Shown: in pieces, positions 51,847 through 61,481 of the stretch | Layout of the letters: every line of letters begins with the position of its first letter | Numbering within the stretch: the first letter of the stretch is position 1 | Source of the DNA: an uncultured bacterium | GTDB lineage: Bacteria; Planctomycetota; UBA1135; GCA-002686595 | Direction: 5' to 3' | Assembly (NCBI GenBank): GCA_938083085.1 | Contig: CALLKX010000014.1 | Span: 186,001-250,000, forward strand | DNA length: 64,000 nt | Made by a program: the position numbers and the translations under genes | The notes under the pieces: model-generated | Database searches by the model: none | Seen by the model: only the letters and a program-made list of their open reading frames with translations | What the model was told of the DNA's origin: nothing

Positions 51847-51921
51847 TGGAGCCAGAGACGGGATTTGAACCCGTGACCGCTGCTTTACGAAAGCAGTGCT
51901 CTACCACTGAGCTACTCTGGC
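51847..51921 (-). tRNA. tRNA-Thr (anticodon CGU)
   Basis: Minus-strand cloverleaf. The acceptor stem GCCAGAG pairs with CTCTGGC. The anticodon stem CTGCT/AGCAG encloses TTCGTAA, giving CGT, and the T-arm has GGTTCAAATCC. The discriminator U is followed by an encoded CCA. Confidence 0.96.
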
Positions 51922-51996
51922 CTTCAGGTGCTCGAAGGGTTTGCCGGGCGCGTGTTGCGCGGTCCGGCGTCGCCCATGAGCGGCGGGGAATCATAG

Positions 51997-52040
51997 CGAG
52001 GCCCGCTGCCGGGAGCGGCAGCGGGCCTCGCAGTTTTTTT
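51997..52040 (+). terminator. Intrinsic terminator without an obvious upstream gene
   Basis: CGAGGCCCGCTGCC (51997-52010) pairs with GGCAGCGGGCCTCG (52017-52030) around a 6-nt loop, followed by CAG and seven T (52034-52040). The T-tract makes it a plus-strand terminator, yet the flanking genes are on the minus strand. Confidence 0.8.
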
Positions 52041-52110: not shown

Positions 52111-54201
52111 TCACTGAGCGCCGACTCGCGAGCGGACGCTCTCGAGGACGCCAGCGCGGGATTCCGCGCCGAGGTTCATGCGACCCAGGGCCTTGGCGGT
52201 GGCCGTGCGAAGGTCGAGGCTCGCGTCGCTGTCCATCACGTCGCGCATGGCGCTGGAGACGGTCGCGGCGAGGTCGATGCGTCCGCCAATCATCCCAACC
52301 GCCGCGGCGGCCGCCATACGGCTGTTGTCGGAGGCGTCCCCATTCGAGAGGACCGCGAGCGCCACGTCCACGTGGGAGGCATCGCCGATCAAGCCGATGG
52401 TCTTGAGGGCCGGAACCGCGATCCCGTCACGACGACCGTCGGTCGCCGCTGCGAGGCCAGGCACCGCAGCGGAGAGATCCGTGTTGCCGCGCCAGGCGAG
52501 CACCTGAAGCGCCTCTGCGGCGTTCTGAGCGAGGGCGTCCGCGCGGGCGCGGTTCTCGTCGAGGCGAGCCTCGAAGACGTCAGAGAGGGCGTCGATCCCG
52601 TCCGCACCGGCGAAGCTGCCCTGGATCCGGTCGCCGTAAGCGTCGGCCAGGTCCTCGTCCGCGGTAAGCAGGTAGGTCGGGGTGCCTTCGAACGCGGGGT
52701 TCTGGCGCACGCGGGAGATCACAGCGTCCGTGGTGAGGTCCGGGAGGTCGTCCCCCACCAGGATCGTGTCGATTCCAGCGAGCTGGCCGATCATGACCAG
52801 GCCCTGGGCTCCGCTGCCCGCGTGCTGAGCGAGGATGCCCTGCCCGTCGAGAGCGGTGATCATGTCGGCGGCGCGCTGGGCGTCACCGTCGATGATCACA
52901 GCGAGCTTCACGACGCGGCGGCCGGCGGCGGTGCCGAGCTCGGCGACCACGTCACTGCCGACCGCGGTGTTGGTGCGGGCACCAATGAAGCCGAGGGCCA
53001 CGGCGGCCTCACCGGCCATCGAGGCGCCACCGCCGATCAGGGCGGCGTTGAGACCGCTGGTGGGTGCCGAGGCGATCTCGCCGAGGACCGACGCGATGCG
53101 GCCACCCGTGGCGGAGTCGCCCGAGGCCACCGACATGTTGAGGGCACGATCCAGCGCGTCGGTACCGGCGCTCATCACGGCCAGCATCCCTTCGTTGGCG
53201 GCGTCAAGGTGCGAACCAACGTCCTCACCGGCAGCGTCGAGGGCGGCCAGCTTGGACTGGATGTCCACGGACTCGCGGGCGATGCCTGCGACGGCGTCCT
53301 GGGAGTCCGGGGCGAGGCCTAGCGCGTGATAGAAGGCGCCCTTGGCGAGCACGTTGTTGTAGATGGCGCGCGGGCTCTCGTTGGCCACGAGCGAGCGATC
53401 TCCCCAGGTCCAGATGACGTCGCTGTAGTCGAGGTCACGGAGGACGGAAGCGCGCCGGTGGTGGTAGTCATCACCGAGCTGGATGAACAAGGACGTCGGG
53501 TCCCCGGCTGCACCGCAGCGCTCGGCGCCCATGGCGGCAGCCGCGCGGATCGTCTCGGACGCGTCCGCCGTGGCGTGCATCAACAGCGCAGCGCCGGCGC
53601 GCGGGTCGGCGATGTTGCCGAGCGCCATGACGACGTTACGACGCTGGAAGTCGTTCTCGGAGGCCAGGGCGGCCAGCAGCGGCTGAACCGCGGCGGGGCC
53701 CATGGTCTGCACCGCGAGCATGGCGTCCGTGACGCGCTCGGGGTCGCTGTCGTCCCCGAGGACGTTCACGAACATCGGGACCGCGTACTCGCCGTGCTGG
53801 GCGCTGATGCGCGACAGCGCCGAGAGGCGGTCTGCAGTGGTCGTGGCCCCGAAGTACTCGCGGACGAGGCCGCGGATCGAGGACTCGTCGTTTCGAAGTT
53901 CGGCGCGCCCGAGGCTCGCGCGCTCGATGAAGCGCATGGCGACCTGGGTGTACTCGTCGCCCGCCGCCATGAAGTCGGCGAGGGTGTCCGAGTCCGCGGC
54001 GAGGTAGACCTGGAAGACCTCGGCCGGCTCCGGGTCGGAGGCGAGCATGCGACGCATTGCGTCGAGCGCCTCCTGCTTACGGCCGCGCGACCACAGGTCG
54101 ATGGCAGCGTCGAAGTCGCTGGAAACGTCCAGGGGGAACGCGGTGGCGCTCGCTACGAGGACGGGAAGGGCGAAGAGGCCCAGGAAGCGCGATCGGCTCA
54201 T
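52111..54201 (-). CDS. Secreted HEAT-repeat protein with an embedded pseudo-receiver domain
   Basis: A 696-residue protein with a signal peptide (core LFALPVLVASATA, residues 9-21). Residues about 125-240 and 570-690 contain HEAT/armadillo-type helical repeats (for example VTDAMLAVQTMGPAAVQPLL and TIGLIGDASHVDVALAVL). Between them, about 429-548, lies a segment with a response-regulator-receiver pattern: VVKLAVIIDGD (acidic pair Asp438/Asp440), DTILVGDDLPDL, and TPTYLLTADED with the Thr-Ala switch. The phosphoacceptor position, four before the Pro, is Gly483, so it should not be phosphorylated. A receiver fold on an exported protein is unusual. Function unknown. Confidence 0.7.
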   Translation of the reverse strand: MSRSRFLGLFALPVLVASATAFPLDVSSDFDAAIDLWSRGRKQEALDAMRRMLASDPEPAEVFQVYLAADSDTLADFMAAGDEYTQVAMRFIERASLGRAELRNDESSIRGLVREYFGATTTADRLSALSRISAQHGEYAVPMFVNVLGDDSDPERVTDAMLAVQTMGPAAVQPLLAALASENDFQRRNVVMALGNIADPRAGAALLMHATADASETIRAAAAMGAERCGAAGDPTSLFIQLGDDYHHRRASVLRDLDYSDVIWTWGDRSLVANESPRAIYNNVLAKGAFYHALGLAPDSQDAVAGIARESVDIQSKLAALDAAGEDVGSHLDAANEGMLAVMSAGTDALDRALNMSVASGDSATGGRIASVLGEIASAPTSGLNAALIGGGASMAGEAAVALGFIGARTNTAVGSDVVAELGTAAGRRVVKLAVIIDGDAQRAADMITALDGQGILAQHAGSGAQGLVMIGQLAGIDTILVGDDLPDLTTDAVISRVRQNPAFEGTPTYLLTADEDLADAYGDRIQGSFAGADGIDALSDVFEARLDENRARADALAQNAAEALQVLAWRGNTDLSAAVPGLAAATDGRRDGIAVPALKTIGLIGDASHVDVALAVLSNGDASDNSRMAAAAAVGMIGGRIDLAATVSSAMRDVMDSDASLDLRTATAKALGRMNLGAESRAGVLESVRSRVGAQ

Positions 54202-54699
54202 GGCGGAAATGGAAGAACCCGTTGAGGCGGACTGTCCGACCGAAGGCCTCAGGCGGGCTTAGCCGCAGGAGGCCGAATCACTCACCCGAGGTAGCCCTTG
54301 TGAGGGCCGCTCGGAGCAGGGAATCCGGTCGGGGGAGAATGTCGGAGTTGGAGTCCGTATTCGGAGAAGCGATCCGCGAGACCTGACCTTCCGGGGTCGC
54401 CCGGGGCCAGGTCACACAACGCAGACCGTTGAGAGGAACTTGGGGGGATGATGCACCCCGCGGCGAAGTCCGAGGACCCGGCGCGGAGAGTCAGGATGAT
54501 AGCGGAGCGAGGGGGGTGGTCAAGGAACGCAACCTCACGCAATCCTCAGCGGGCAGGATCTCTCGCTGGCGGCCGCACCTCAAAGGGAGGAATTGACCGG
54601 AGGATCGGGCGAGATTTGGTTCGAAGTGAAGGGGCTCCGCAGGCCCTATTCACGTTCAGGGCCGGAGGCTACCCGGCAAATCACCGGCTGCCGCTCCCC
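54202..54699. other. Gene-free stretch between the HEAT gene and anmK
   Basis: This 498-bp gap should contain the promoter of the HEAT-repeat gene. I see no hairpin terminator, tandem repeat or convincing small gene in it. Open frames here are short or continue as shadows of anmK. Confidence 0.4.
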
Positions 54700-55920
54700 T
54701 CAGAGCCCGATCCGCGGCCCGCTCGACCACTTCCCGAGGATCCGGCCGCCCAGCGCCCCGGTCACTTCGGGCCGCGACGAGACTTCTCCGACCGCGAGCC
54801 GCGCCCCCAGGACCGCAAACGCCAGGGCCTCCCTGAAATCCGATGGGACTCCGTGACGATCCGAGGGGCCGAAGCCGCTCAGCCGGCCCCCCCGGGACTG
54901 CAGCTGGGCCTGGAGTTCCTCCTCGATCGCCCCCATGAGGGTGGGGTTCCGGGCCCCACCCCCGGCCACGGCCACCTCGACGCCCCCCTGGAGAGATTCC
55001 AGGCGCCCTCCGCGGAGGAGGTCCCCTACTGCGGCCCGGGCCACGAATCGGGTGGCCGTGGCCAGCAGATCCTCTGCCGAGGCCCCCGGCGCCGAGGCCA
55101 TGAAGGCCCCCAGGTACGCGGGTCCGAAGGTGTCCAACCCGGTCGACTTGGGCCAGGGGCGCTCCAGGAAGGGGTGCCCGTTCAGCGCCTCGAGCAGCTC
55201 CAGGCGCACCTCTCCTCGCGCCGCCACAACGCCGTCCCTGTCCATCGGGCGATTCAAAACGGCGCGCGCCAGGCCGTCGAGCAGGGCCCCGGCTGGGCCG
55301 GCGTCCGAGCCGGCAGGGGGGGCGCCGGCGCGCAGCAGCGTCCAGTTGGCGATCCCGCCGAGGTTCAAGATGGCGAGGGGCCGGGGCGCGGCCGAGAACA
55401 ACACGTCGTCCACGAGCACGACCAGCGGCGCACCCTCTCCCCCCGCAGCGCAGTCGCGAGTCCGGAAGTCGGAGGCCACGGCGCACCCCGCCGCCTCAGC
55501 GACGAAGTCCCCGTCCCCAAGCTGCATCGTGACCTTGCCCAGGCCCGGGTCGCCGTCATGGTGAAAGACCGTCTGTCCGTGGCTCGCCACGAGGCCGAGG
55601 GGCGCGTCTGGCCCCGCCACCCTCCGAACCGCGGCCCCGAAGGCGAGGCCGAGGTCACGGTCGAGCAGCGCGATCTTCGGGAGCGAGATCGCGCCGCCAT
55701 CAAGGACCTCCCGGACTCGCGCCGAGAGCTCGGTGGCCATGGGCACGGTCGCCAGCTGCGTGGCCTCGACCCCGCAGACCCTTCGGTCGCCACCATGACC
55801 CCGCACGGCGATCCGCCCCACCGCGACGTCAATGCCGTCGGCCGAGGTCCCGGACAGGACGCCCGCCACCAGGTCTCCGTCCACGAGGGGCGCTCCTTGG
55901 GCAGGCGGGTGCGACAGCAT
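54700..55920 (-). CDS. anmK: Anhydro-N-acetylmuramic acid kinase
   Basis: A 406-residue enzyme that phosphorylates 1,6-anhydroMurNAc to MurNAc-6-phosphate during peptidoglycan recycling. The ATP-binding GVLSGTSADGIDVA (quoted in full within limits) is the AnmK signature at about residues 20-33, SHGQTVFHH and LNLGGIANWT follow, and VAVAGGGARNPTLM closes the fold. Its presence implies recycling of a murein-type wall. ATG at 55920 is chosen; the frame remains open far upstream through a repeat region but has no family similarity there. Confidence 0.93.
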   Translation of the reverse strand: MLSHPPAQGAPLVDGDLVAGVLSGTSADGIDVAVGRIAVRGHGGDRRVCGVEATQLATVPMATELSARVREVLDGGAISLPKIALLDRDLGLAFGAAVRRVAGPDAPLGLVASHGQTVFHHDGDPGLGKVTMQLGDGDFVAEAAGCAVASDFRTRDCAAGGEGAPLVVLVDDVLFSAAPRPLAILNLGGIANWTLLRAGAPPAGSDAGPAGALLDGLARAVLNRPMDRDGVVAARGEVRLELLEALNGHPFLERPWPKSTGLDTFGPAYLGAFMASAPGASAEDLLATATRFVARAAVGDLLRGGRLESLQGGVEVAVAGGGARNPTLMGAIEEELQAQLQSRGGRLSGFGPSDRHGVPSDFREALAFAVLGARLAVGEVSSRPEVTGALGGRILGKWSSGPRIGL

Positions 55921-56525
55921 GGAGACATTGAACCGGATCACGGGATCCCGCGGGCCATGTCCCGAGCATCCCGAGGCGCCGACCCACGCGGGGTCCCCGA
56001 CTCGCCACTGCCCCAGGCGGTCCTCGGCCATGGCGGTGGACCGCCCCTCGCCCCGAACCGCCCCTGGCCCCAAGCCCGCACGGGCACCCCATCGGGGCTG
56101 CCTCCCTCTCGATCCCGCCCTCTCGACACTGCCGCTGGGTGAACGCTGCCGCCGGGTGAACGCTGCCGCTAAGTGAACGCTGCCGCTGAGTGAACGCTGC
56201 CGCTGGGTGAACACTGCCGCCAGGTGAACGCCGCCGTCACACGAGGACAGACGCGGAAGGAACACGGACACGTGAGGGAGCCCCTCCCCTTCTGGCGCGC
56301 GCTGCCCTCCACGGGCCCAGGCTGCGCAGAGACCGACCGGCCGGCCCACCGGGCCGAGGGACCGGGAAGGCCGGAGACGCCTCCCACGCCGCGTTCGCTC
56401 CAGGTGCACGCCCCAACCCTTCCCCACCGCTCTGCCACGCCCCTCTGCCGCGCCGCCGAGGACCGGCAGCGGAGCCATGAAGCCGGGCCGATGGCCGGGG
56501 CGATGGAATCGGGCACAATGACCGT
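55921..56525. other. Regulatory gap with tandem repeats between anmK and the NtrC-type gene
   Basis: A 605-bp divergent intergenic region containing the 17-bp repeat array described separately. Promoters for both genes should lie here. I see no convincing sigma-54 -24/-12 element by eye. Confidence 0.4.
56125..56237. repeat. 17-bp tandem repeat, about 6 copies
   Basis: Units of about GAACGCTGCCGCTGGGT start at 56141, 56158, 56175, 56192 and 56209, with a diverged copy before (56125-56140) and a partial one after. The array lies about 290-400 bp upstream of the NtrC-type gene and within 320 bp of the anmK start. Confidence 0.9.
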
Positions 56526-57938
56526 ATGGGAGACTCCATCGACGCCACCTCACCCAAGGCCCGCAAGGCCATCCTCGTCGTCGACGACGACGCGGACATC
56601 CGACAGACCCTGGAGATGACCCTCCAGTATGAGGGCTTCGAGGTCTGGACCGCGAAGACCGGAGCCGAGGCGCTGGCCCGCCTCGAGTCCGAACCTGATG
56701 GCCCGGCCCTCGTGCTCACGGACGTGAAGATGCCGGGCCTCGACGGACTCGAGCTGCTCGACCGTATCGCGGCGGCAGAGTCCGCCCCCCCGGTGGTCCT
56801 CATCAGCGGGCACGGCGACGTTCCGGTGGCCGTCGACGCCATGCAGCGCGGCGCGGTCAACTTCCTGGAGAAGCCCCTCGACGAGCGCCGGCTCCTGGTC
56901 ACCGTCCACCGGGCCATCCGGGAGCAGGACCTGGTCGTCGAGAACCGCGGCCTCAAGCGGCAGCTCCGGTCGGGCTACGAGTTGATCGGAGAGTCCGACA
57001 CCATGCAGCGGCTGGGCGAGACGATCGCACGGGTGGCCCAGACCGACGCCTCGGTGCTGATCACCGGGGAGAACGGGGTCGGCAAGGAGCTCGTGGCCCG
57101 CAACATCCACCTCAGCGGCCCCCGAGCCGCGGGTCCCTTCGTCACCGTGAACTGCGCGGCGATCCCGGCCGACCTGGTGGAGTCCGAGCTCTTCGGCCAT
57201 ATGAAGGGGTCCTTCACCGGCGCCCACGAGAACCGCGTCGGGCACTTCGAGGCCTCCGGCGGCGGCAATCTCTTCCTGGACGAGGTCGGCGATATGCCCC
57301 TGCCCGCACAGGCCAAGGTCCTGCGCGCACTCGAGTCCCACGAGATCTCCCGGGTGGGCGACAGCGCCAGCCGGAAGGTGGACCTGCGAGTCCTGGCCGC
57401 GACCAACGCGGACCTGACCCAGGCCGTGGAGGACCGCGCCTTCCGCATGGACCTCTACTACCGGCTCAACGTGGTCGCCCTCGAGGTCCCGCCCCTTCGC
57501 TCGAGGCCGGAGGACGTCCCCCTGATCGCACGACACCTCCTCGAGCGTCAGGCGGAACGGATCGGGAGGAGCCCCCTCGTCCTTGCCGCCGACGCCGAGG
57601 ACGCCCTGAAGTCCCACCCATGGCCGGGCAACGTCCGACAGCTGAGGAACATCCTCGAGGCGGCCGCCATCTTCTGCGACGACCAGCGGATCGTGGGCGA
57701 GGACATCGCTCGCGTCCTCGCCAACGGCCCCGCGCTGACCCCCGCAGGTTCGGCCAACGCTTCGGAGGACAGCCCCTTCGAGGCAGAGACCTTCGAGCAG
57801 TTCAAGAACGAGGCCGAGGCGCTCTTCTTCGAACGGCGCCTTGAGCGGAACGGCGGCAACGTCAAGCGGACCGCGGAGGGACTGGGCATGCAGCGCAGCC
57901 ACCTCTACAAGAAGCTGGACCGCTACGGCCTGCGCTGA
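56526..57938 (+). CDS. NtrC-family sigma-54-dependent response regulator
   Basis: A 470-residue regulator with three domains. The receiver (about 15-130) keeps the phosphoacceptor Asp66 (LTDVKMP) and the Lys in FLEKPLD. The AAA+ domain (about 150-390) has Walker A GENGVGKE (181-188) and a sigma-54 contact loop reading GSFTGA (228-233) instead of GAFTGA, a known tolerated change. A Fis-type helix-turn-helix ends the protein (VKRTAEGLGMQRSHLYKKL). It should activate sigma-54 promoters when phosphorylated. No histidine kinase is adjacent, so its signal is unknown. Confidence 0.95.
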   Translation: MGDSIDATSPKARKAILVVDDDADIRQTLEMTLQYEGFEVWTAKTGAEALARLESEPDGPALVLTDVKMPGLDGLELLDRIAAAESAPPVVLISGHGDVPVAVDAMQRGAVNFLEKPLDERRLLVTVHRAIREQDLVVENRGLKRQLRSGYELIGESDTMQRLGETIARVAQTDASVLITGENGVGKELVARNIHLSGPRAAGPFVTVNCAAIPADLVESELFGHMKGSFTGAHENRVGHFEASGGGNLFLDEVGDMPLPAQAKVLRALESHEISRVGDSASRKVDLRVLAATNADLTQAVEDRAFRMDLYYRLNVVALEVPPLRSRPEDVPLIARHLLERQAERIGRSPLVLAADAEDALKSHPWPGNVRQLRNILEAAAIFCDDQRIVGEDIARVLANGPALTPAGSANASEDSPFEAETFEQFKNEAEALFFERRLERNGGNVKRTAEGLGMQRSHLYKKLDRYGLR

Positions 57939-58093: not shown

Positions 58094-58837
58094 TTACTGC
58101 GCGGTGGGGACCCGCAGCATCATGCCGGCGCGAACCTTGCTCGCGTCGGAGACCACGCCCCGGTTCAGTTCGAAGATCTCCTTCCAGCGGACACCGGAAC
58201 CGAGCGTCCGCTCGGCGACGAGCCAGAGGCTCTCTCCTTCGAGCACCTCGATGGTCTGGAAGGCCGGAGCGGGGCCCAGGTCGTCCACCGCCGGGACGAG
58301 GACCTGCTCGCCCGGGAGATCCATCCCCTCGTTGTAGTGGCGGAGGAGACGAGTACGGCTCTCGTCGCCATAGAGGGTGGTCGCCAGCGAAGCCCAGGTC
58401 ACGCCGGGCTCCGGGCGCATGAGCATCATCTCGGGGTCGACGGTGGGCTCCAGCCCGCGGGTGGAAACAAGGTCCCAACCCGCCTTGAGCTGAACCGCGC
58501 TCCGCTCCCGGGGGGCCGGCTCTTTCACCACGACCGCCGAATTGAGGATCCCCCGGTCGTCGAGCGCCGCGACCTCGCCTGCGCCAGCGACCGTGGTGGT
58601 CTGACCGAGGACGTCATTCACGTTCACGGGCTGCTCCAGCTGGATCACCGGCCGCCGATTTTCGGGCGTGACGCGGTTGAAGACGCTGGGGCTCGGCTCG
58701 TCGCGTGCGGCTTGCGGAGCCGGCGCAGCCCCTTCGGAGGCCGCCGCGCGGGCTTCAGGCCCCTGGAGCGACCAGACAAAGAGGACGACGACGGCGAAGA
58801 GGACGCTGAGGACCACGATCTTCTCGGTCTTTCCCAT
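58094..58837 (-). CDS. Membrane-anchored LysM-domain protein
   Basis: A 247-residue protein with one N-terminal transmembrane segment (about residues 7-23). A Pro/Ala-rich spacer follows. The C-terminal half has LysM-like peptidoglycan-binding modules: VTWASLATTLYGDESRTRLL..YNEGMDL, quoted in part as LATTLYGDESRTRLL, and IEVLEGESLWLVAERTLGSG ending in AGMMLRVP. It probably tethers the membrane to the wall. ATG at 58837; it is divergent from the membrane glycosyltransferase gene. Confidence 0.82.
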   Translation of the reverse strand: MGKTEKIVVLSVLFAVVVLFVWSLQGPEARAAASEGAAPAPQAARDEPSPSVFNRVTPENRRPVIQLEQPVNVNDVLGQTTTVAGAGEVAALDDRGILNSAVVVKEPAPRERSAVQLKAGWDLVSTRGLEPTVDPEMMLMRPEPGVTWASLATTLYGDESRTRLLRHYNEGMDLPGEQVLVPAVDDLGPAPAFQTIEVLEGESLWLVAERTLGSGVRWKEIFELNRGVVSDASKVRAGMMLRVPTAQ

Positions 58838-59129
58838 GGATGAACTTCCCTCTTGTGGCGCGGTCCCGTTCGGGCGGAGAGGACTCCGGCGTTGGACAGG
58901 GCGCGTGGCCCGGCGGCGCAGGTGGGCCGACGGAATGATGTGGTGGACGGTGTGCGAATCGCCCCGCGTTGGCCGGGGGTCCCGGTGAGAACACGAGCGC
59001 GTCGATGTGCGGACGACGCGCCGGAGAACCAGGGCGCCCCCACAATCGAGATCGGGCGCGCCTGATTCAAGTGCCGGCTGTCTCCTTTCCGCGAAGAGAT
59101 CGATCTCCGAGTGGGTATCTTCCATCGCC

Positions 59130-61481
59130 ATGAGCGCCCCACACCACGGGTCCCCCATTGCTGCGCCGCCGCAGGCACCCTCCGGCGCCAGAGGGGCCTG
59201 CAAGGATCCGTGCTTCCTGGCCCTCTTGAGCATGATGGCCCTGCTAGGCGCATGGTCCTGGCTGCGGGTCGAGGGGGCCCTGTTCGCCGACGTGGTCGAA
59301 TACCTCGAGCGGGCCCGCGCCCTCGTCGCGGGCGAGGAGCTCCTCGACGCCCAGAAGGTCCGCGCCGCCGGGATCACCGCCTTGCACGCGCCGGTGCTCT
59401 GGCTCGCCGGGGTCGCAGGCGTCGCCGAGGGCCCCTGGGTTCTGGTCTATGCGGCCGTGGTCCACCTCCTCATCAGCGCCGCCCTGCTCTTGGCCACACG
59501 GCAGCTGGCCATCGCCATCGCCGCGGCTGCCGGCGTCCGGGGCGAGGGGCTGGCCCCCGTGGGCAACCTCGCCGCGGCGGGCGCCCTCGCCTCCCCCACG
59601 CTCCTGCAGTTCATGGCCATCCCCATGACGGACGTGGCCGCAGGCGCCGCCCTCGCCCTGGGAATGGAGCGAGCCCTCTTTGGTCCCTCCAGCGCCGCCA
59701 GGGGAAGGGCCGCTGGGGCCTGGCTGGGGGTGGCCGTGGTGTGTGCCTTCAAGGCCATCCCGCTGGTCCTGCTGGTGCTGGCCGCGATGATCGTGGGCCG
59801 CACGCTCTCCCACGGGATCAAGGACGCAGCGCGCACCGCCATCGCCGCAGCCGCGTCCCTGGCGGTCCTCTTGCTGGTTCAGTGCGTGCTAGACCGCCTG
59901 ACCTACGGGCAGTTCGGCGTCGGGCTGTGGACCTACCTGCTCATCAACTTCGGCCCCCAGTCCGGACAGCTGCTGTACGAGATCGGCGCCGTAGACCTCG
60001 GTCAATGGCTCTACCAGCAGGGCGCCAACGCCATCGGTGAGGTCACCCTCGACGATGTCTCTCGCTCGACGGACGACTTCAGGGCCCTCGAGGGGCGGAC
60101 CTGGTACCTCGACCACTTCCAGTGGTTCTCCCCCCGCTGGCTGACGCCGGCGGTGGCGCTGGGCGCCGCTGCAGCGGTAGCAGGGGCGCTCCGAAGCGGC
60201 CGCGGCGCCGCCTTGCGGGCCCTCATGCCCCTGGGTATCGCGCTGGCCTACGGAGCGCTCACGAGCTTCAAGGGCAGCAAGGACATGCGCATCTGGCTCC
60301 CTGTGCTACCCGCCTACGCGGCGTACATGGGCATCGGGCTCGTCGCCCTCGCCGGCAGCGCCTCCTCGCTCGCCCCGCGCCTGCGCGCCGCCGTGGTCGC
60401 GACCCTGGTGCTCGGCGGCGTCCTGCACGCCGCCCTCCACGCCTCCTTGACCCCCACTGCGCCCTTCGGCGCCTTCGAGCGCGCGGCGATGTGGCTGGAA
60501 GAGGCACCGGTCTCTGCCGTCGGGCGCACTCCGAAGGTGGCCTCCAGCTACCACTGGGCCGTGCTCTTCCGTACCCCGACAGGCTGGGAGTTGGAGAAGC
60601 TCCCCTCCCAGCTCGACGCGGCCGCGGCGCGGCAGGACCCCGAGGCCATGGGGAGAAGCCTCGCACGCATGGAGGCCCAGGACGCCTTCCTCATGCACTC
60701 GTCCCTCCTGTCCGCTCCATCGGCCGCGGAGATCGTCGATGTGGTCTCAAGAGAGTTCCACGTGGCCGCGGCCTTCTGGGATCGAGCCGTGGACACGGGC
60801 TCCGGAGCCGTGCTGGTCTTCACGCGCCACGTCCCCGAGGGCACACGCCGCCGAGTGGTCCGCGCGGCCTCGCCGTCGCCGCCCCGTGGGGCGCGGACGG
60901 TGCGCCTCGAACGCCCCCTGGGGCCCGAACGCGAGCTGATGAGCCTGGACGGCCTGAGGGTCTCCCGGCTCCCCGGCGACGGGCTCTACTGGGTTGAGGT
61001 GGACGTCGCCCAGCGGGGCGAGGTCGTGCGGGGTGGGTACGCCCTGGGGCTGCGCGTGTCAGACGCCAGCGGGCGCCAGGGATACACCTCGTACCGAAGG
61101 CCGGACTGGGGCCGCGGAGACGTGCGCCGCTGGGCCCAGGGGACCACCTGGACCGAGGGCTTCCTCCTCCGGCCGGATCAGGGGCCACTGTCGCTCCAGG
61201 AGGCCTTCAAGCCCGTCCGGCGCGGCGCCAGGGCCCACCTATGGTTCGATATGGCCACCCTCGACGCGGACGCCGAGGGGCGCCGCCTCATCACCGGCCG
61301 GCTCGAGCCGATCGACCCTTCAGGCGTCCACGCGGAACGAGATGACGTCTCACCTGAAGCGGAGCTCTCCGATGACGGATGGCGCTTCTCGCCCATCCAC
61401 GGGGAGCTTCTGATCGGCTCCTTCGAGACTGGGAACAAGGCAATCGACGTTCGCCTTGAGGGCGGCCTCGCCGCTGAGTAG
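59130..61481 (+). CDS. Large membrane protein, GT39/ArnT-like glycosyltransferase
   Basis: A 783-residue protein. The N-terminal two thirds have about ten hydrophobic segments, and an acidic residue pair early in the first extracytoplasmic loop (LFADVVEYLERAR) resembles the catalytic loop of GT-C enzymes such as GT39/ArnT that use polyprenyl-phosphate sugars. The C-terminal 250 residues are a soluble beta-rich domain. The family call is by architecture, not a specific motif. ATG at 59130 is used; the upstream frame to 59007 lacks support. It follows a 292-bp divergent gap. Confidence 0.65.
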   Translation: MSAPHHGSPIAAPPQAPSGARGACKDPCFLALLSMMALLGAWSWLRVEGALFADVVEYLERARALVAGEELLDAQKVRAAGITALHAPVLWLAGVAGVAEGPWVLVYAAVVHLLISAALLLATRQLAIAIAAAAGVRGEGLAPVGNLAAAGALASPTLLQFMAIPMTDVAAGAALALGMERALFGPSSAARGRAAGAWLGVAVVCAFKAIPLVLLVLAAMIVGRTLSHGIKDAARTAIAAAASLAVLLLVQCVLDRLTYGQFGVGLWTYLLINFGPQSGQLLYEIGAVDLGQWLYQQGANAIGEVTLDDVSRSTDDFRALEGRTWYLDHFQWFSPRWLTPAVALGAAAAVAGALRSGRGAALRALMPLGIALAYGALTSFKGSKDMRIWLPVLPAYAAYMGIGLVALAGSASSLAPRLRAAVVATLVLGGVLHAALHASLTPTAPFGAFERAAMWLEEAPVSAVGRTPKVASSYHWAVLFRTPTGWELEKLPSQLDAAAARQDPEAMGRSLARMEAQDAFLMHSSLLSAPSAAEIVDVVSREFHVAAAFWDRAVDTGSGAVLVFTRHVPEGTRRRVVRAASPSPPRGARTVRLERPLGPERELMSLDGLRVSRLPGDGLYWVEVDVAQRGEVVRGGYALGLRVSDASGRQGYTSYRRPDWGRGDVRRWAQGTTWTEGFLLRPDQGPLSLQEAFKPVRRGARAHLWFDMATLDADAEGRRLITGRLEPIDPSGVHAERDDVSPEAELSDDGWRFSPIHGELLIGSFETGNKAIDVRLEGGLAAE

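Follow-up and report, generated by a model that had tools for sequence, protein, structure and literature searches.

The question raised by one gene in the window (the whole 64,000-nucleotide stretch of DNA that was analysed) is whether a receiver, one of the commonest bacterial domains and one treated as cytoplasmic, has been built into an exported helical-repeat protein, and to what use it is put there. A first-pass annotation, made by eye, had proposed such an arrangement. The features on which the analysis bears are collected in Table 1. An AlphaFold model, built from the family alignment with a mean pLDDT of 88.5 and a pTM of 0.79 (single-sequence run: pLDDT 38.8), consists of a TPR/HEAT solenoid that is broken at residues 432–545, within its C-terminal third, by a clean (βα)5 domain. 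Helical hairpins occur on both sides of this insert, in agreement with the flanking helical repeats of the first-pass annotation, and on the N-terminal side HEAT_2 (PF13646) matches residues 144–224 with an E-value of 7e-11 and 42.7 bits, against a cut-off of 27.7. This match, which identifies a HEAT-repeat protein, is the sole one returned by Pfam for the window protein. HEAT matches at E-values up to 0.1 were found in 53/53 full-length relatives, and a TPR_2 match in 35 of 53, the latter in an N-terminal region that had previously been overlooked. Within the solenoid, Trp264, which is conserved above all other residues in the family, is placed in a β-hairpin whose modelled strands span residues 262–267 and 270–275.

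Table 1. Coordinates of the gene, its parts and its surroundings in the window.
Feature	Coordinates	Strand	Basis
Whole gene, TPR/HEAT solenoid (predicted exported) with inserted pseudo-receiver	52111..54201	-	ORF, 696 aa; export predicted
Predicted signal peptide, residues 1–21, AxA site 19–21	54139..54201	-	sequence; family-wide heuristic; disordered in model
TPR-like and following helices, residues 26–118	53848..54126	-	TPR_2 in relatives; model
HEAT-type solenoid N-terminal to insert, residues 122–428	52918..53838	-	HEAT_2 match; model
Conserved β-hairpin with Trp264, residues 255–280	53362..53439	-	model; conservation
Pseudo-receiver, residues 429–548; (βα)5 at 432–545	52558..52917	-	PDB profile, Pfam on relatives, model, Foldseek, active-site census, dN/dS
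Gly483 codon, phosphoacceptor Asp position	52753..52755	-	alignment
Helical-repeat solenoid C-terminal to insert, residues 549–696	52114..52557	-	model
Long 5' leader	54202..54489	-	conservation; transcription start inferred
Sigma-70-like promoter, TTGACC-16-TATCAT	54496..54523	-	10/12 consensus match
anmK, upstream neighbour, start codon not fixed	54700..55986	-	PF03702, E 5e-74
NtrC-type sigma-54 response regulator with regular receiver, divergent neighbour	56526..57938	+	Pfam

Pfam, applied to the window protein alone, made no receiver call, the domain falling below threshold, and NCBIfam CtrA matched residues 435–543 at an E-value of 0.0017, far under its cut-off. Since the receiver was invisible to Pfam in this one sequence, the by-eye alignment needed a test at the level of the family. 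A profile of 55 homologous segments was therefore searched against the PDB, where it retrieved PleD, CheY and NtrC at E-values of 1.6e-8 to 4e-7, along with FrzS and other receivers; apart from one de novo design, the 60 listed matches were receivers or fusions containing the FrzS receiver. Searched individually, 32 of the 55 segments matched Response_reg (PF00072), the best of them at 4e-8. In the model, the strands of the insert (432–437, 456–461, 479–483, 509–512 and 528–530) alternate with five helices, and Foldseek, run with the full model, superposed receivers such as 3t6k, 3gl9 and 3dge with a target TM of 0.83 and an rmsd of 2.1–2.3 Å. Receivers overall were matched at 2.1–2.6 Å and a target TM of ~0.8, with E-values that were modest (3e-3 to 1e-2) because the query was the entire solenoid. 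A Foldseek search against viral structures gave nothing beyond receivers and helical repeats. By predicted fold and by sequence homology, residues 429–548 are a receiver-superfamily domain, as had been read by eye, and are not helical like their flanks.

The phosphorylation chemistry of this domain has been lost. The five active-site positions of the window protein are occupied by D438, G439, G483, T513 and G532. The alignment agrees with the first-pass annotation in assigning Gly483 to the phosphoacceptor position; of the acidic pair proposed there, Asp438/Asp440, Asp438 is retained but its partner is not, the canonical pair being Asp438/Gly439 and D440 the next residue. The full DD, D, T, K set is present in 0/135 aligned members, so that a phosphorylatable receiver is ruled out and the earlier description of the domain as degenerate extends to the family. 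The phosphoacceptor Asp occurs in ten of the 135 members, never with a complete catalytic set, and in 47 of the 52 members of the same class the position holds Gly, Ala, Ser or Asn, while DD1 is acidic in 105 of the 135. Because some other clades retain the Lys (L142, L206, L207, L209, L210 and L213) or both Asp and Lys (L132, L134, L135 and L198), the catalytic set seems to have eroded piecemeal. Receiver homology combined with missing key phosphotransfer residues corresponds to the definition of a pseudo-receiver given in a 2025 review (PMC12632262). As a separate observation, the clade comprising L142, L206–L211 and L213 has a long insertion after β3 and Ala or Ser at the phosphoacceptor position, and most of its members carry a KP motif that replaces the active-site Lys loop.

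The N-terminus, MSRSRFLGLFALPVLVASATA followed by FPL, displays by eye a basic n-region, a hydrophobic core and AxA at 19–21, which accords with the clear signal peptide of the first-pass annotation. Across the family, signal peptides were called with a simple heuristic rule, not SignalP, and calls were positive in 132 of 138 members, compared with 32 of 1461 internal Met starts (2.2%); two of the negatives, L129 and L149, would be judged positive on visual inspection. Among the other receiver proteins of the same genome, 1/30 was positive, and there the scored start was an internal Met, the N-terminus of the long ORF having been cut off. The form of the signal peptide is kept across relatives although its sequence diverges, and the model contains no second hydrophobic segment that would return the chain across the membrane. 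By this heuristic, the protein is predicted to be Sec-exported. The two outcomes that had been named beforehand as speaking against the annotated architecture, a helical 429–548 region and a missing signal peptide, were thus seen neither in the model nor with the heuristic.

The protein was found in 61/61 sampled genomes of the genus, family and order, normally as one full-length copy, and orthologs were found in 120 of 121 sampled genomes of the class. At E-values up to 1e-10, a match was obtained in 181 of 196 Planctomycetota genomes; many of these matches covered the full length, and some were partial or fell into two alignments. The named records with the protein are Planctomycetota or uncultured-bacterium assemblies, in a scan that detects close relatives only. 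Among the closely related members L001–L005, dN/dS was 0.016–0.087 for the receiver, 0.05–0.17 for the N-side solenoid and 0.07–0.14 for the C-side. The receiver domain is under purifying selection, at or below the dN/dS of the N-side solenoid, and is therefore in use; a decaying relic is ruled out by these low values. Two members, L154 (590 aa) and L156 (588 aa), have no receiver insert, and their solenoid joins at 428/551. In a tree computed from the solenoid alone, both nest among domain-bearing lineages with a support of 0.993; their lack of the domain is therefore a secondary loss. Its loss in one small subclade marks the pseudo-receiver as a removable module.

Outside the core strands, receiver conservation is highest on the side of the β3α3-loop, α3 and α4 and lowest in α1, the β5α5 loop and α5, a face-to-face gap that is small and computed over some ten residues per element. 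According to the 2025 review, the FrzS pseudo-receiver binds SgmX via its α3β4α4 surface (PMC12632262). Since the chemistry is gone but the fold is kept under selection, the pseudo-receiver probably now serves the cell envelope as a docking module, a role that we infer by analogy with FrzS. Protein–protein binding would fit both the purifying selection on a non-catalytic domain and the conserved β3α3-loop/α3/β4/α4 side. The protein would then act as an adaptor in the planctomycete periplasm, with this side of the pseudo-receiver as the most likely docking face, independent of phosphorylation, and with the solenoid and its Trp264 hairpin holding other partners. Sequence comparison and prediction support the architecture, receiver homology, catalytic loss, export-type N-terminus, phylum-wide spread and purifying selection; the explanation that we favour, and consider rather likely, is an exported soluble envelope scaffold whose former receiver has turned into a phosphorylation-independent binding module. 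The domain loss in L154 and L156 counts against it, as the rest of the protein is able to work without the receiver.

The β3α3 loop and D438, which lie near the old active site, are conserved in the class, and this would also agree with a ligand sensor, in which a periplasmic small molecule in the former active-site cleft reshapes the solenoid. Small molecules are bound by other pseudo-receivers and atypical regulators, namely quinones in CikA and KaiA and end products in JadR1, according to the same review (PMC12632262). The residues lining the old site, however, vary widely between classes, a pattern that gives no hint of a single conserved ligand, and we regard a sensor as unlikely. A mere structural spacer, bending or extending the solenoid with no binding function of its own, would suit a domain that lies between two helical repeats and was cleanly lost in L154/L156; yet the domain is held by purifying selection as tightly as the solenoid, and phylum-wide conservation extends to residues on its exposed helices, for example Tyr522 of α4, so that this, too, is quite unlikely.

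The docking scaffold can be set beside several known systems. FrzS of Myxococcus xanthus and the second receiver of PleD, both among the profile matches, likewise have the receiver fold without the phosphorylation residues. The FrzS and PleD proteins are cytoplasmic, whereas here the domain sits inside the helical solenoid of a signal-peptide protein. HEAT/TPR-repeat proteins (PF13646, TPR_2) share the repeat types, the Trp264 hairpin and the receiver insert being particular to the present family, and we know of no described architecture in which a HEAT/TPR solenoid bears a receiver insert. In the open-licence literature, neither an exported receiver nor a description of this family was found. 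FrzS itself travels from pole to pole within the cell (PMC1974792). The family is a use of the pseudo-receiver in a new setting, and a broader one than the first-pass annotation suspected.

The membrane-coat-like proteins of Planctomycetes (PMC2799638) are likewise α-solenoid proteins typical of the group, but they carry an N-terminal β-propeller, which the present, receiver-bearing protein lacks. No β-propeller was detected in the family Pfam scans or in the model, and the order of propeller and then α-solenoid that characterizes those proteins is not seen. A membrane-shaping periplasmic scaffold of comparable role, with the receiver as a self-assembly interface, would draw on a phylum-wide α-solenoid with predicted export, on the presence of such coat-like proteins in planctomycetes (PMC2799638) and on a planctomycete periplasm that is enlarged and convoluted (PMC5394234). 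Given the absent propeller, and a distribution that takes in many lineages of unknown cell architecture, we hold it to be very unlikely. The least credible alternative is a cytoplasmic protein, or one whose N-terminus acts as a membrane anchor and keeps the receiver on the inner side, able to meet two-component partners, for which the heuristic nature of the signal-peptide call and a sigma-54 response regulator gene near many relatives may be adduced, and against which stand a signal-peptide-like N-terminus maintained through sequence divergence, a model with no second hydrophobic segment to bring the chain back and an active site gone in all members.

As a phylum-wide family with predicted export, dead chemistry and clear selection, the putative docking scaffold would constitute a natural experiment on the phosphorylation-free receiver fold, whose role in bacteria is still called a mystery in the 2025 review (PMC12632262). 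Planctomycetes have an unusual envelope, of which the protein is a candidate conserved component; this could be examined in Planctopirus limnophila, for which genetic tools exist (PMC5394234).

Gene neighbourhoods were clustered on non-overlapping ORFs. In 27 of the examined loci, which represent several classes, the gene anmK, whose product acts in peptidoglycan recycling, lies upstream in the same orientation; it is not adjacent in all relatives, and in L049, L052 and L053 it almost touches the gene. A divergent NtrC-type regulator is close by in 24 loci, and several other loci have LysM genes in the vicinity of the homolog. This context of anmK, sigma-54 regulator and LysM suggests a role in cell-wall turnover or envelope stress, which is the weakest step of the argument. 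More tentatively, it is possible that in an early planctomycete a two-component receiver was captured by an exported solenoid and became a switch or dock of the periplasm, independent of phosphorylation, which is still present in most of the phylum and belongs to an envelope system near peptidoglycan recycling.

The promoter hexamers are identical in five close relatives. The ~290-nt leader is 76–89% identical among close relatives, compared with 57–66% at the fourfold-degenerate sites of the gene; it matched no Rfam family, folds weakly better than shuffled sequences (z −2.0) and is possibly regulatory. Elsewhere in the window, a small LysM protein that has a hydrophobic segment at its N-terminus is encoded at 58094-58837 on the minus strand, followed at 59007-61481 on the plus strand by an 824-aa ORF that is hydrophobic by eye and has no Pfam match. 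Immediately past the 3' end of the gene, a perfect 16-bp GC-rich hairpin and then a T-run occupy 51996-52031 on the plus strand, and a tRNA-Thr (CGT) is located at 51847-51921 on the minus strand.
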